Made by a program: the position numbers and the translations under genes. This document shows, one piece after another, positions 15,109-41,083 of a stretch of 64,000 nt of DNA. Numbering within the stretch: the stretch's first letter is position 1; every line of letters starts with the position of its first letter. The DNA is taken from positions 62,001 through 126,000 of the forward strand of contig NZ_CP049616.1 of assembly GCF_011068285.1 (NCBI RefSeq). The letters run 5' to 3'. Origin of the DNA: Flagellimonas oceani. GTDB taxonomy: Bacteria; Bacteroidota; Bacteroidia; Flavobacteriales; Flavobacteriaceae. The notes beneath the pieces are model-generated. The model saw nothing but the letters and a program-made list of their open reading frames with translations, was not told where the DNA came from and searched no databases.

Positions 15109-18100
15109 ATGGATTTAAGGCATTTGGCCATATCAGATTTTAAAACATTGAGCGGGTCCGTTCAAGACATAAAGTTGTCATATCAAGTTTTTGGAAAACC
15201 CTTGCATACGGCACCCATCATTTTGGTGAACCATGCACTCACGGGCAATTCCAATGTTGCCGGGAAAGATGGGTGGTGGTCCGATCTTATCGGGGATGGA
15301 AAATGTATCGATACCGAGAAGTACACCATATTGTCTTTTAATATTCCTGGAAACGGTTTTGATGGTTTCATCATCGAAAACTATAAGGATTTTGTAGCTG
15401 GAGATATCGCCAGAATATTTCTTTGGGGACTGGAGCAATTGGAGATCGATAAACTGTTCGCCATCATTGGCGGCTCTTTGGGAGGTGGAATTGCTTGGGA
15501 AATGACGGCCATCAACCCAAATATCACGGAGCATTTGATTCCCGTGGCATCCGATTGGAAATCCACGGATTGGTTGATTGCCAACTGTCAGATTCAAGAG
15601 CAGTTTTTGGTCAATTCCAAACAACCCGTGCACGATGCCCGTATGCATGCGATGTTGTGCTACCGAACACCGGAATCTTTTAAAGAGCGATTCAAAAGAA
15701 GCACCAACGAGGAACTACAGGTTTTTAATGTGGAATCTTGGTTGATGCACCACGGTAAAAAATTGCAGGAGCGTTTTCAGCTATCAGCCTATAAATTGAT
15801 GAACCAACTGTTGAAATCCATCGATATCACCAGAAATGGTGAAGAAGCATTCAAGGCATTGCAGGATAGCGACACCAAAATCCACATTATTGGGGTCAAT
15901 TCCGATTTGTTCTTCACGGCGGAGGAGAACAAGGAGACATTTAAAAGATTGGCCCAGGCCAATACCAATGTGACTTATGGCGAGGTACAATCCGTACACG
16001 GTCACGATGCCTTTTTGATGGAGTTTGAACAATTGGAAAAATTGTTGGAGACCGTTTTCCAAAAGAATACCGAACGCATCAAAATATTGAAGTTCGGTGG
16101 GAAATCCCTGGCCAACGGAGAGGGCATTCAGCGTGTATTGAAAATTATCACCCAAAGGTTTGAAGCGGAAGAACACTTTGCAGTCGTGGTTTCCGCTCGT
16201 GGCAAGGCAACGGACCAACTGGAAAACTTGCTCGAAAAAGCGGCCAAGGGAGCTGATTTTCAAACCGATTTAAAGAAGTTTGCCGACTATCAAAAAAACA
16301 ATTTTGATGGAGTCGATATTGATGAAGAGCTGGCGACCATCGAAAAAATATTGAACGGGGTTTCCTTAACGGGCGATTACAGTCTCAAAACCAAAGATGA
16401 GGTATTGTCTTTTGGAGAATTGTTGTCCGCCAAATATGTAACGGCCGCGCTGAATACATCTGGGGTAAAAGCAAAGCTTTTGGATTCTCGAAAGTTGATC
16501 AGCACGGATGACAATTATAGCAATGCCGAAGTGGACTATGGCACCTCCAAAGAAAATGTACTTCGATATTTCCATGCACTGGAAAAGGATACCATCCCGA
16601 TAGTTACTGGATTTATTGGTTCCAACCGTGATGGTTCAACGACCACTTTGGGCAGGAACGGCAGCAATTATTCCGCAGCGCTGCTGGCCAATTTTTTGGA
16701 TGCGGGCGAGTTGATCAATTACACCCACGTGGATGGTATTTTCACGGCCAATCCGGATTTGGTGGCGGATGCGCGATTAATAGATGTGATTTCCTATGGC
16801 GAGGCCAATGAGCTCGCCAATTTCGGAGCAAATATTTTGCACGCGAAGACCATAATTCCACTGATCGAGAAAAACATTCCCTTGCGCATATGCAACACCT
16901 TCAATGATAATAACGAAGGCACGTTGATCGGTCCAAAAACCGATAATGGGGGCATCAAATCCCTTTCAGTGCTCGACAATATGGCCCTCATCAATTTGGA
17001 AGGTAGAGGACTGCTTGGTAAAGTGGGTGTGGACATGCGCATTTTTCGGGCATTGGGCCAAAATGGCATTAGCGTAGGTATTGTTTCTCAAGGGTCTTCG
17101 GAACGGGGCATTGGTCTCGTGGTGGATGCATCCAAAGCGGACAAAGCCAAGAAAGTGCTCGACCAAGAGTTTGAGACGGATTACTCTTCAAAAGACATCA
17201 ACCAGATTTCAGTGGTCAAAGATGTTTCGGTCATTTCCATTGTGGGAATGGATTTGAGCAGTTTTCACAAACCCTTCAATGCCTTGGCGAAGAACCAAAT
17301 CACGCCCTTGCTGTTCAACAATACGGTAACCGGGAAGAACGTGAGTATGGTGGTGAAGAAATCCGACTTGAACAAGGCCATCAATGTGATTCACGGACAG
17401 ATTTTCGGAATCGCTAGAAAAATCAATTTGGCGTTGTTTGGACACGGCAATGTCGGCGGAACGCTGATCAGTCAAATTCTGGATTCAAAAACCAGTATCG
17501 AAGACCGAAAAAGTATCGATTTAAAAGTGTTCGCTGTGGCAAATTCCAAAAAAGTGCTTTTGGATGCTTCGGGAGTGGGTTCGGATTGGAAGGAACGTTT
17601 GGAAAAAGAGGGGCAACCCTATCAAATCGAAGATATTACCGCTTTTGCGAAACAACATCATTTGGAAAACCTGATTGCGGTGGACAACACGGCGAGCAAA
17701 ACCTTTGTGCAGCAATATGAATCATTGATCGAGCACGGTTTTGACTTGGTTTCATCAAACAAGATTGCAAACACGCTGAGTTTTGAGAAATATAAATCAA
17801 TAAGAAAGTGTTTGGATAAAAATCAAAAACAATACCTGTACGAAACCAACGTAGGAGCAGGACTACCGTTGATAGATACCATCAAACTGTTGCATTTGTC
17901 CGGTGAGAACATCACTAGAATCAAAGGCGTGTTTTCGGGATCGCTAAGTTATATTTTCAATACCTTTTCCGAGAAAGATGTTTCTTTTTCAGAAATCGTA
18001 AAGGAGGCTATGGAAAGTGGCTTTACCGAACCCGACCCAAGAGAAGATTTGTCCGGTAACGACGTGGGAAGAAAACTATTGATTTTGGCCAGGGAATTGG

Positions 18101-18492
18101 ACCTTCAGAACGAGTTTTCGGATATTGATGTACAAAACTTGATTCCAGAAGAACTACGAACTTTGGATTTTGAAAAGTTTATGGAACACATCGTAGAGAT
18201 GGATGATGTTTATAAGAAAATCAAAGAAGACCAAAAACAAGGACACGTGCTTCGCTACATAGGTGATTTGCACGGGGATTTGCAACAGGACAAAGGGATC
18301 TTGGACGTACAATTGGTGTCTGTGCCCAAAGAAAGCGCTTTGGGGCAGGTGAAAGGTTCCGATTCGATTATTGAGATTTATACAGAATCCTACGGAGAGC
18401 ATCCCTTGGTGATTCAAGGAGCAGGGGCAGGGGCCGCTGTAACGGCAAGGGGTGTTTTTGGAGACATATTAAGAATAGCGGAGAAAATATAG
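15109..18492 (+). CDS. thrA: Trifunctional fusion: MetX-like homoserine acyltransferase, aspartokinase, homoserine dehydrogenase
   Basis: A 1127-residue protein with three units. Residues 1-320 are a MetX-type alpha/beta hydrolase: ILVNHALTGNSNVAG, nucleophile Ser123 in GGSLGGG, Asp266, His299 in GHDAFL, and YRTPESFKERF. Residues 325 to about 770 are aspartokinase with the KFGGKS start and two ACT domains (EGRGLLGKVGVDMRIFRALG and VGMDLSSFHKPFNALAKNQI). Residues 772-1127 are homoserine dehydrogenase (ALFGHGNVGGT and FSGSLSYIFNTF). It would phosphorylate aspartate, reduce aspartate semialdehyde and acylate the homoserine made, committing it to methionine. The gene is under an S-box riboswitch and upstream of metZ. 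Fusions of this size occur in Flavobacteriia. Confidence 0.93.
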   Translation: MDLRHLAISDFKTLSGSVQDIKLSYQVFGKPLHTAPIILVNHALTGNSNVAGKDGWWSDLIGDGKCIDTEKYTILSFNIPGNGFDGFIIENYKDFVAGDIARIFLWGLEQLEIDKLFAIIGGSLGGGIAWEMTAINPNITEHLIPVASDWKSTDWLIANCQIQEQFLVNSKQPVHDARMHAMLCYRTPESFKERFKRSTNEELQVFNVESWLMHHGKKLQERFQLSAYKLMNQLLKSIDITRNGEEAFKALQDSDTKIHIIGVNSDLFFTAEENKETFKRLAQANTNVTYGEVQSVHGHDAFLMEFEQLEKLLETVFQKNTERIKILKFGGKSLANGEGIQRVLKIITQRFEAEEHFAVVVSARGKATDQLENLLEKAAKGADFQTDLKKFADYQKNNFDGVDIDEELATIEKILNGVSLTGDYSLKTKDEVLSFGELLSAKYVTAALNTSGVKAKLLDSRKLISTDDNYSNAEVDYGTSKENVLRYFHALEKDTIPIVTGFIGSNRDGSTTTLGRNGSNYSAALLANFLDAGELINYTHVDGIFTANPDLVADARLIDVISYGEANELANFGANILHAKTIIPLIEKNIPLRICNTFNDNNEGTLIGPKTDNGGIKSLSVLDNMALINLEGRGLLGKVGVDMRIFRALGQNGISVGIVSQGSSERGIGLVVDASKADKAKKVLDQEFETDYSSKDINQISVVKDVSVISIVGMDLSSFHKPFNALAKNQITPLLFNNTVTGKNVSMVVKKSDLNKAINVIHGQIFGIARKINLALFGHGNVGGTLISQILDSKTSIEDRKSIDLKVFAVANSKKVLLDASGVGSDWKERLEKEGQPYQIEDITAFAKQHHLENLIAVDNTASKTFVQQYESLIEHGFDLVSSNKIANTLSFEKYKSIRKCLDKNQKQYLYETNVGAGLPLIDTIKLLHLSGENITRIKGVFSGSLSYIFNTFSEKDVSFSEIVKEAMESGFTEPDPREDLSGNDVGRKLLILARELDLQNEFSDIDVQNLIPEELRTLDFEKFMEHIVEMDDVYKKIKEDQKQGHVLRYIGDLHGDLQQDKGILDVQLVSVPKESALGQVKGSDSIIEIYTESYGEHPLVIQGAGAGAAVTARGVFGDILRIAEKI

Positions 18493-18509
18493 CTTCGACT
18501 TCAGCTACC
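18492..18509 (-). repeat. Degenerate inverted copy of the REP-like palindrome
   Basis: GCTTCGACTTCAGCTACC resembles the reverse complement of the element at 18528-18551 (GCTTCGACTACGCTCAGCCACC) with a 4-nt internal loss. It directly abuts the thrA stop codon and can fold back on the intact copy 18 nt downstream. Confidence 0.55.
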
Positions 18510-18527
18510 AATGATTTTGAAGTTTCG

Positions 18528-18551
18528 GTGGCTGAGCGTAGTCGAAGCCAC
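18528..18551 (+). repeat. REP-like palindrome, left flank of the GIY-YIG gene
   Basis: Stem GTGGC / GCCAC encloses the 14-nt centre TGAGCGTAGTCGAA. It ends 7 nt before the GIY-YIG start codon. An inverted copy flanks the other side of the gene at 18874, and a copy with a different stem but similar centre lies at 26899-26922. Confidence 0.8.
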
Positions 18552-18558
18552 AATTATA

Positions 18559-18873
18559 ATGAAAGGATACGTCTACATATTGGAATGCTCAGATGGAAGT
18601 TATTATACCGGAAGTACCATTGACTTGGAGAACCGGTTAAAGGAGCATCAAGATGGTCGGGGTGCCAACCATACAAAGAAAAGACTGCCGGTTAAGTTGG
18701 TATATGTTGAAGAGTATTTAAGTATTGCAACAGCCTTTGAACGCGAAAAGCAGATTCAAGGGTGGTCTAGGGAAAAAAAGAAGGCATTGATAGTTGGAGA
18801 ATTTGATGCACTCACAAATTTAGCCGAGTGTAAAAATGAGACAAGTTTTAAATATTATAAGGAGAAAAAATAA
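18559..18873 (+). CDS. GIY-YIG family nuclease (UPF0213-like), REP-bracketed
   Basis: This is a 104-residue single-domain protein. The frame is open upstream, but ATG at 18559 gives the family start MKGYVYILECSDGSYYTGST, where VYI and YTG are the GIY-YIG strands. The Arg helix follows (LENRLKEH), then His in GANHTKKR, and the metal-binding Glu in AFEREKQIQGWSREKKKAL. Such stand-alone domains cut DNA in homing and repair enzymes, but the role of this subfamily is unknown. Inverted copies of a 24-bp palindrome lie 7 nt before the start and directly after the stop. The whole unit fills the gap between thrA and metZ, which suggests insertion of a small mobile or REP-associated element into the operon. 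Confidence 0.88.
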   Translation: MKGYVYILECSDGSYYTGSTIDLENRLKEHQDGRGANHTKKRLPVKLVYVEEYLSIATAFEREKQIQGWSREKKKALIVGEFDALTNLAECKNETSFKYYKEKK

Positions 18874-18897
18874 GTGGCTTCGACTCCGCTCAGCCAC
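18874..18897 (-). repeat. REP-like palindrome, right flank of the GIY-YIG gene
   Basis: GTGGC / GCCAC stem around TTCGACTCCGCTCA, the inverted form of the left copy with one difference in the variable triplet. It begins at the base after the GIY-YIG stop codon and ends 15 nt before the metZ start. Confidence 0.8.
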
Positions 18898-18912
18898 CAA
18901 AAATGGAACAAA

Positions 18913-20079
18913 ATGAAAGGCAAAAAATTCGAGACGCAAGCAATAAGAACGCAAATGGAGCGCAGTCAAAACTTGGAGCATTCCAGCCCCATTTATATGA
19001 CCTCCAGCTTTGTTTTTGAAGATGCGGAGGACATGCGTGCCTCTTTTGCAGAGGAAAAGCAGCGCAATATCTATTCCAGATATTCCAACCCCAATTCGAA
19101 CGAACTCATTGAAAGGGTTTGCCAGATGGAAGGGGCTGAGAGCGGTTTTGCTTACGCCTCCGGTATGGCCGCCGTTTTTTCAACTTTGGCTGCTTTATTG
19201 GATACGGGTGATCGCGTGATTTCGTCCAAAAGTATTTTTGGGTCCACGCACACCCTTTTCACGCAGTTTTTTCCAAAGTGGAACATCGAAACCAGTTATT
19301 TTGATGCCAACGATTTGTCTCAAATAGAAGGTTTGATCAAACCAAATACCAAGATACTTTATGCCGAAACTCCGACCAACCCAGGCGTGGATGTCTTGGA
19401 TTTGGAAGTGTTGGCCAAAATTGCCAAAAAGCACGGCCTTATTTTTATTATCGATAACTGTTTTGCGACACCGTATTTGCAACAGCCGATTAAATTTGGT
19501 GCCGATTTGGTCATTCACTCGGGAACCAAGTTGATGGATGGACAAGGAAGGGTATTGGCCGGAATTACGGTGGGTAGCGGAGAATTGATGGACAAAGTGT
19601 ACCGTTTTTCCCGAATTACGGGACCTGCATTGTCCCCGTTCAATGCGTGGGTGTTGTCACGAAGCTTGGAAACCTTGGCGATTCGGGTGGATAGACACTG
19701 TGAGAACGCTTTGAAATTGGCAACCTATCTGGAGAGTCACGATAAGATTGAATGGGTGAAGTATCCATTTTTGAAATCGCACCCCAAGCACGAAATTGCC
19801 AAAAAGCAAATGAAAGCAGGCGGTTGCGTTGTGGCCTTTGAAGTTAAGGGCGGTCTGGAAGCCGGGCGGGAATTTTTTGACAGTATCAAATTATTATCCT
19901 TGTCCGCGAACTTGGGAGATGCACGAAGCATTGTGACGCATCCCGCATCCACTACCCACAGCAAGCTGACCACAGAGGAGCGCAATGCCGTTGGAATTTC
20001 CGATGGAATGGTACGCGTGTCCGTCGGATTGGAACATATCGATGATATTATCGCTGATATTGAGCAGGCTCTAGGTTAA
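18913..20079 (+). CDS. metZ: O-acyl-homoserine sulfhydrylase / cystathionine gamma-synthase family enzyme
   Basis: The frame opens earlier with GTG inside the REP element. ATG at 18913 gives the natural start MKGKKFETQAIRTQMERSQN and 388 residues. PLP-family motifs are present: SRYSNPNSNELIERVCQMEG, YASGMAAVFSTLAALL, YAETPTNPGVDVLDL, and the PLP Lys in IHSGTKLMDGQGRVLAG. The DGQGRVLAG segment is typical of MetZ sulfhydrylases, which add sulfide to acylated homoserine to give homocysteine. Sulfide comes from the cys operon just downstream and the acyl-homoserine from the fusion protein upstream, so context agrees. Cystathionine gamma-synthase activity is the alternative. Confidence 0.9.
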   Translation: MKGKKFETQAIRTQMERSQNLEHSSPIYMTSSFVFEDAEDMRASFAEEKQRNIYSRYSNPNSNELIERVCQMEGAESGFAYASGMAAVFSTLAALLDTGDRVISSKSIFGSTHTLFTQFFPKWNIETSYFDANDLSQIEGLIKPNTKILYAETPTNPGVDVLDLEVLAKIAKKHGLIFIIDNCFATPYLQQPIKFGADLVIHSGTKLMDGQGRVLAGITVGSGELMDKVYRFSRITGPALSPFNAWVLSRSLETLAIRVDRHCENALKLATYLESHDKIEWVKYPFLKSHPKHEIAKKQMKAGGCVVAFEVKGGLEAGREFFDSIKLLSLSANLGDARSIVTHPASTTHSKLTTEERNAVGISDGMVRVSVGLEHIDDIIADIEQALG

Positions 20080-40867: not shown

Positions 40868-41083
40868 CACTTTTACTTGTTTTAATCCTTGGGTTTCCAA
40901 AGCAAGGATTTCGTTCATTAAATCTTTTTAAAATTATTGGTAAGAAGGGAATTCTTAAAAAAGCATCGTTTCTGTAAAATAATGTGCAGCGAAAATGTCT
41001 TTTTTGAAAAAAATCAAAAAAAATTTGGGAATGTCTGTGTGTTTCCGATTGAATACCTAAATTAGCCGACAATTAACAACGAG

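Follow-up and report, generated by a model that had tools for sequence, protein, structure and literature searches.

The thrA-metZ locus

The window, by which we mean the whole stretch of 64,000 nucleotides analysed here (G000:C1:62001-126000), carries a small gene for a stand-alone GIY-YIG nuclease lodged between two host genes, thrA and metZ (Table 1). This gene is flanked by two REPs of 25 nt each, mutually inverted, whose arms form a 29-nt inverted repeat that is 93% complementary. A first-pass annotation of the same DNA had described a GIY-YIG gene of this length between inverted palindromes, one shortly before its start and the other after its stop, and both the coordinates and the Pfam match agree with it. 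It had also stated that the unit occupies the whole space between the two host genes, which is indeed the case, since the position of the metZ start codon leaves the thrA-metZ gap filled by the REP-GIY-REP unit. Other parts of that description need to be adjusted. The degenerate third copy exists, but the thrA stop codon is part of its left arm and does not merely abut it, and the word palindrome is right as to the inverted symmetry of the repeats, although this symmetry is imperfect, with a stem of 6-7 bp around an internal TGAG/CGAA mismatch. Among relatives the thrA stop is TAG, TAA or TGA and, as judged by eye, the opposite REP arm often changes with it, giving the pairs TAG...CTA in G000 (the window's genome) and G020, and TAA...TTA in G005.

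Table 1. Features of the REP-GIY-REP unit and of its host genes (positions in the window).
Feature	Position	Strand	Remarks
thrA, upstream host gene	15109..18492	+	fused MetX-like hydrolase / aspartokinase / homoserine dehydrogenase; stop codon inside the first REP
Degenerate REP copy	18490..18509	-	left arm includes the thrA stop TAG (18490-18492); arms TAGCT/AGCTA pair
REP copy 1	18527..18551	+	GGTGGC stem around core TGAGCGTAGTCGAA; 7 nt before the GIY-YIG start
Stand-alone GIY-YIG nuclease gene	18559..18873	+	104 codons; ATG 18559, TAA 18871-18873; PF01541
REP copy 2	18874..18898	-	inverted; directly after the GIY-YIG stop codon
metZ, downstream host gene	18913..20079	+	Cys/Met metabolism PLP enzyme; ATG 18913

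The GIY-YIG protein

The encoded protein matches the GIY-YIG family PF01541 (E 5.7e-19, 68.6 bits), and Pfam assigns it no extra domain. Its structural model shows a GIY-YIG domain on its own, plus a short tail (pLDDT 76.7). Eight residues, Y6, Y16, G18, T20, R26, H30, E63 and K64, are invariant in all 28 aligned sequences, and we take Y6, Y16, R26, H30 and E63 to be the catalytic ones; the Tyr, Tyr, Arg and Glu of the domain are thus intact in 28/28. The nearest solved folds are those of UPF0213 proteins (PDB 1ZG2 and 1YWL), followed by structure-selective Slx1 nucleases with weak E-values from 0.03. Homologues are numerous, with 5226 protein clusters in one search, and are widely annotated as "GIY-YIG nuclease family protein" or "putative endonuclease". 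The nearest proteins with a name come from Flagellimonas/Allomuricauda, of the Flavobacteriaceae.

The window-type repeat

The core of the repeat, TGAGCNNNGTCGAAG, occurs 40 times without mismatch in the genome of the window (4.61 Mb), against none for the reversed control pattern. Only two of these 40 flank the GIY gene at thrA-metZ, and the full GGTGGC/GCCAC stem is confined to these two. When 27 distinct arm combinations were compared over seven stem positions, 120 of the 189 positions paired, against a mean of 84.6 and a maximum of 104 after shuffling. Next to the core, three stem positions form pairs in 26, 24 and 26 of the 27 combinations; the outer two vary among several kinds of pair, and the innermost is always C-G (26/26). 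This covariation implies that the hairpin shape is kept while the sequence of the stem changes. The inner TGAG/CGAA positions could, judging by their sequence, form a tandem G.A mismatch. Folded as single-stranded DNA, the palindromes are weak when taken singly (-5.1 and -4.3 kcal/mol, each with z near -2). Folding is strong for the upstream doublet, in which the two copies pair with each other (-15.1 kcal/mol, z -4.9).

The published description of CGTC REPs (C/TGTC tag, stem of 8-9 bp, loop of 4-5 nt; PMC3733652) was coded as a strict rule, which has a single match over the window, in an A/T-rich stretch at 40996, and none at the unit. The window repeats lack the CGTC tag, and their reading as plain CGTC REPs was rejected. 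They were also missed by a hairpin finder that expects a near-perfect stem, because the TGAG/CGAA mismatch interrupts theirs; this finder was replaced by the comparison of the two flanks of a gene with each other, which yields the flank scores given below.

Elsewhere in the genome, the segment G000:C1:3971144-3985755 packs 16 of the 40 exact cores into 15 kb (19 when near matches are included); most have GGTCGC/GCGAC stems and a downstream sequence in common. At G000:C1:4526910, a window-type core is nested in the loop of a longer palindrome that ends in a TGTCATTCC tag, an arrangement that looks like the insertion of one REP type into another.

Occupied and unoccupied thrA-metZ gaps

Out of 24 same-genus genomes, the window's own counted, eight have the unit at thrA-metZ, one has a REP doublet only and 15 have neither. 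The whole unit is seen in seven of them (G000, G001, G002, G012, G016, G017 and G020), and in G006 thrA, REPs and the GIY gene follow one another until the contig ends. The doublet without a GIY gene, also inverted, is that of G005. The first-pass annotation had asked whether close relatives lack the unit, and 15 of 24 do; 14 of these 15 also have neither a window-type core nor a strict CGTC REP in the gap. The metZ start overlaps or closely trails the thrA stop in most unit-free relatives (overlap or a distance of a few bases in 13 of the 15, and a short gap in G003), and four of the 15 have a MetZ 95-97% identical to that of the window. G007 (L098) has a different, 39-nt palindromic spacer at thrA-metZ, which conforms to the strict CGTC rule and comes without a GIY gene.

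The unit is also found at thrA-metZ in other genera (L193, L194 and L195, and interrupted in L207), and the occupied loci are scattered on a tree of the thrA plus metZ proteins. This scatter may reflect repeated gain, loss or exchange of the region. As several other genera carry the unit at the same place, long vertical inheritance with losses is possible, and the unit is probably an old occupant of this site and not a fresh insertion; for the same reason a recent single insertion is not favoured. By eye, the two leftmost REPs enclose a spacer whose orientation differs between G001 (L092) and G002 (L095), which suggests a rearrangement at the REPs.

Same-genus genomes with the window-type gene have a median of 22 core copies, against 8.5 for those without it (one-sided p 0.005), and genomes with the gene of a second GIY/REP type likewise have more of its cores (one-sided p 0.010); both values are rough, because the genomes are related and kinship is uncorrected. 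Same-genus genomes without the window-type gene still hold 1 to 39 core copies. Copy number is therefore a trend and not a clean marker of gene presence, several genomes having REPs without the gene.

Other GIY-YIG loci in the family

A homologue at E 1e-30 or better is present in 25 of 249 family genomes, including that of the window. At some of these loci the GIY domain shares one open frame with another protein, which, from reading the sequences, we take to be GHMP-kinase-like in L196, L197, L202, L203 and L205, and RecQ-like in L200. The linkers of L196 and L197 contain the REP-encoded peptides LRLRSAT and AERSRS. L198, at another place again, has GGTGGCTGAGCGTAGTCGAAGCCAC, a palindrome of the window's type, upstream of its GIY gene.

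Other stand-alone GIY-YIG genes are bracketed too, each subfamily by its own palindrome: CGTCACTTCGAGTG...TGTATCGAGAA in L045-L049 and L062, TGTCAGGTCGAGCGCAGTCGAGACC in L050-L052 and L063, TGTCAGGCTGAGCGCAGTCGAAGC in L064, TGTCACCCTGAGCTTGTCGAAG in L065 and TGTCATTCCTGCGAAAGCAGGAATCCA in L055. In L064, and with a two-base centre in L065, a window-type core is joined to a TGTC tag, and these loci thereby link the two REP classes. Of 56 loci from relatives and the family, 54 had sufficient flank; the shared flank segment scores at least 16 in 37 of these and below 12 in 7. Sharing of flank repeats between loci rises with protein identity, from 0.3-0.4% of the pairs below 45% identity to 48% of the 99 pairs above 70%, among the non-syntenic pairs of 114 loci (83 syntenic pairs were removed), a rise to which shared ancestry and base composition contribute.

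The genome of the window has five GIY-domain genes, and both stand-alone ones sit between palindromes. For the second of them (at 3916175) these were recognised on both sides by eye, with a flank score of only 14. The UvrC-like gene, whose downstream flank is only 42 nt, and the two exonuclease-like genes gave no flank repeat.

A different arrangement is seen in L060 and L061, over a stretch reaching from some 90 nt ahead of the GIY-YIG gene to 110 nt behind it. The gene, of another type, directly follows a putative tRNA gene, and a second copy of the tRNA 3' end and terminator lies directly downstream; the shared flank segments are therefore direct repeats of about 70 nt (score 65) and not REPs. 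These loci may represent a tRNA-targeted variant of the same idea. The GIY gene of L053 also lies after a putative tRNA end.

REP bracketing across phyla

In one survey, REPs were recorded as high-copy elements in more than 80 species of 8 phyla and divided into two superfamilies, one of them being the CGTC REPs (PMC3733652), which include dRS3 of Neisseria and RPE-4/6 of Rickettsia. We scanned a genome collection with an alignment of ten GIY proteins and read the best 80 of 570 confirmed loci, 74 of which had enough flank. Strict CGTC REPs stand on both sides of 45 of these 74 GIY genes, against 6 of 512 other ORFs at the same loci, an odds ratio of about 130. This answers in the affirmative, for the best 80 of 570 loci, the question raised by the first-pass annotation of whether GIY-YIG genes are bracketed above chance. 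In this same set of the best 80, the REPs are found upstream in 47/74 and downstream in 55/74, and on both sides in 15 of 20 loci of Bacteroidota and in 30 of 54 others. The remaining 29 of the 74 fail the two-sided strict rule, and several of them still share a long flank repeat.

The comparison of upstream and downstream flanks, which is independent of any tag, gives the same picture for the best 80 of 570 loci, with a shared repeat scoring at least 20 in 50/74 GIY genes against 7/411 other ORFs (Fisher 7e-42), and at least 16 in 58/74 against 9/411 (Fisher 3e-50). Within these loci CGTC REPs reach a density of 4.05 per kb next to GIY genes, compared with 0.108 per kb in the remainder, and in a comparison of tags beside the genes CGTC counts 166, against 8, 1, 1 and 20, and 1 for GTAG. 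The tags are oriented outward, the nearest upstream copy being forward in 35 of 47 and the nearest downstream copy reversed in 48 of 55 (best 80 of 570). A common CGTC REP pattern, searched with at most one mismatch, occurs in 19/19 genomes at 1 to 291 copies (control 0), these genomes having come from 20 loci picked for that REP type, with L138 left out.

Two expectations of the first-pass annotation are thereby widened. It had placed the system in Bacteroidetes, where it is present but to which it is not confined, being found in many phyla; and it had named the palindromes of the window as the partner repeat, which holds for the window, but the wider partner is the already described CGTC REP superfamily, even though the window repeats are tag-less.

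Plasmid loci and unoccupied sites

Eight of 35 matches in a plasmid collection were read, with A also allowed as the first base of the tag, and six of the eight have CGTC-type REPs on both sides within 300 nt: those of A. lipoferum, N. aromaticivorans, S. meliloti, a Rhizobium, N. gonorrhoeae and a Shinella. The Planktothrix and Spirosoma loci have no REPs by this tag-relaxed rule.

In A. lipoferum 4B, the sufB-sufC gap holds a REP pair, the GIY gene and a second REP pair. Eleven other Azospirillum records align across this locus in two pieces (81-82% coverage), and the gap has neither a GIY gene nor a strict CGTC REP in 5/5 Azospirillum relatives read; that of Azospirillum B510 shows, by eye, another palindrome. 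Shinella sp. PSBB067 (L232) has in the same sufB-sufC gap as A. lipoferum (L219) a different REP-GIY-REP unit, with a different REP. This double occupancy suggests that such units have preferred insertion sites in operons, immediately after stop codons. The unit of Rhizobium sp. CIAT894 has an IS4-family element on one side and a peptidase gene on the other. Of 124 records matching this stretch, one, CIAT894 itself, covers at least 80% of it, and the other 39 among the matches listed cover the IS or the peptidase part only.

Proposed mechanism and alternative explanations

We infer cleavage and transposition by the GIY-YIG protein from the association of the gene with REPs and from their presence and absence among genomes. 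The REP-GIY-REP arrangement would probably represent a small autonomous mobile unit, whose predicted REP-cognate nuclease moves or copies the unit and its REPs. In such a mechanism, the nuclease would recognise the folded REP, either single-stranded or as a cruciform, through its stem, its internal mismatch and/or its tag, and would nick or cut next to it. Cutting would let the whole unit, REP doublets or single REPs be copied or moved. GIY-YIG enzymes hydrolyse DNA with no covalent intermediate, and therefore rejoining would be left to host repair or recombination. The scattered REPs would then be non-autonomous derivatives mobilised in trans. In favour of this reading we count the two-sided bracketing and the outward tags in the survey, the subfamily-specific palindromes, the occupied and unoccupied alleles, the many REP copies, the higher core counts in genomes with the gene, the lack of a Y1 match in the window's genome, and the invariant catalytic residues together with the weak fold likeness to Slx1. 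Weighing against it are the 38 core copies away from the unit, none with its full stem, the cores in genomes that have no window-type gene, the 29 of 74 loci that fail the two-sided rule, the two of eight plasmid loci without REPs, the missing tag of the window repeats, and the thrA-metZ units of other genera.

GIY-YIG domains are also typical of homing endonucleases, and an alternative would be that the gene is a homing-type parasite: the REPs would spread by other means, the nuclease would cut REP doublets, and repair would copy the gene in. This we hold to be unlikely. A weak match to group I intron endonucleases, short of the cut-off, points in that direction, as do the doublet without a gene in G005 and the 39-nt spacer of G007 with its strict CGTC pattern, but G005 clusters with genomes that have the unit and may have arisen from them by deletion. 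A homing endonuclease gene would be expected inside its own recognition site in an allele that is otherwise identical; unoccupied alleles do exist, and they are mostly without any REP (none in 14/15 unit-free thrA-metZ gaps and in 5/5 sufB-sufC gaps read); thus, REPs and gene mostly appear together. It also counts against a separate spread of the REPs that a Y1 transposase was not found in the genome of the window, and that CGTC REPs are described as having no transposase association (PMC3733652).

Less credible still is a caretaker role, in which the nuclease trims or resolves REP hairpins and cruciforms, protecting the host or regulating the operon, and moves nothing. The structural likeness to the branched-DNA nuclease Slx1, with its weak E-values, would suit such a role, and so would the gene order kept around the unit at thrA-metZ in several genera; but it leaves unexplained the bracketing of the gene by its own REPs, its patchiness within a genus and its occurrence at sites that have nothing in common (thrA-metZ, sufB-sufC, ahead of GHMP-kinase-like and RecQ-like genes). 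That the association is coincidental or indirect seems barely tenable. REPs do prefer the gaps between genes (PMC3733652), so that REPs and small GIY-YIG genes might share permissive gaps, or the repeats might be terminators or mRNA hairpins, and some control ORFs are bracketed as well (6/512 by the strict rule and 7/411 by flank score, best 80 of 570 loci). However, the odds ratio against same-locus controls in those loci speaks against this, the tag comparison, the orientation and the subfamily specificity are not expected from shared gaps, and in the window's genome both stand-alone GIY genes sit between palindromes, no flank repeat having been found for the UvrC- and exonuclease-like ones.

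Beyond the autonomous mobile unit itself, we lean, with somewhat less assurance, towards a broader reading: stand-alone GIY-YIG nucleases would be the missing mobilising enzymes of CGTC REPs and of related tag-less REPs, forming a second, independent class of REPtron, hydrolytic and hairpin-acting, spread over many phyla and behind some of the commonest short repeats of bacteria. A large GIY-YIG family without an assigned role would thereby gain a likely function, and REP mobilisation would seem to have arisen two or more times, from nucleases that are not related to each other. The enzyme of the CGTC superfamily, which in 2013 was left without a transposase (PMC3733652), becomes testable with a protein of 100 residues and an oligonucleotide of 30 nt.

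Relation to known REP and GIY-YIG systems

In 2013, CGTC REPs were apparently without a dedicated transposase and were not associated with transposase genes, and an early loss of their enzyme was suggested (Di Nocera et al. 2013, PMC3733652). The term GIY is absent from the main text of that paper. Among the titles and abstract starts listed in searches of open-access full text, we found no report of a GIY-YIG/REP association, and the single open-access paper with both "GIY-YIG" and "extragenic palindrom" mentions them separately.

Regarding the protein, the closest relatives are the UPF0213 proteins 1ZG2 and 1YWL, presumably the YhbQ-like family, which belong to the same single-domain family by sequence and fold. 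With homing endonucleases of the I-TevI type the unit shares the catalytic domain and a distribution like that of a selfish gene, in which some alleles are unoccupied; it differs from them in being bracketed by REPs, in occupying several unrelated sites and in having no extra Pfam domain.

The closest parallel in organisation is found in the REPtrons of RAYT (TnpA-REP) transposases, which also consist of a stand-alone enzyme gene bracketed by hairpin repeats with many copies elsewhere. As in these, the enzyme gene is flanked by inverted REPs in the window unit and its orthologues, and REPs are scattered over the genome, with the 40 core copies of the window's genome against a control of 0. RAYT REPs resemble the repeats described here as well in their end tag and in their stem mismatches, which in E. 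coli are conserved and important for activity (PMC8266576, PMC3733652). The enzymes, however, are different, GIY-YIG (PF01541) in the window and Y1/HuH in RAYT systems, and the GTAG tag of RAYT REPs is not seen at the ends of the window REPs and is found once against 166 CGTC tags in the best 80 of 570 loci. Since neither enzyme nor tag is of the RAYT kind, the unit is not a member of that family. The chemistry of GIY-YIG enzymes cannot be the covalent strand transfer of Y1 transposases. A RAYT or Y1 transposase as the real mover was also considered and rejected, none being found in the genome of the window (no PF01797 match). Our reading is that the unit parallels the RAYT transposases and is evolutionarily unrelated to them.

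As for the repeats, those of the window itself differ from CGTC REPs in lacking the tag. In the best 80 of 570 loci, on the other hand, the repeats found on both sides of 45/74 GIY genes have the C/TGTC tag, the stem of 8-9 bp and the loop of 4-5 nt of CGTC REPs, and many of the repeats beside GIY genes also carry the CCA tail. Such REPs stand beside GIY genes in species and genera that PMC3733652 had named for them: A. lipoferum, S. meliloti, N. aromaticivorans and Neisseria.
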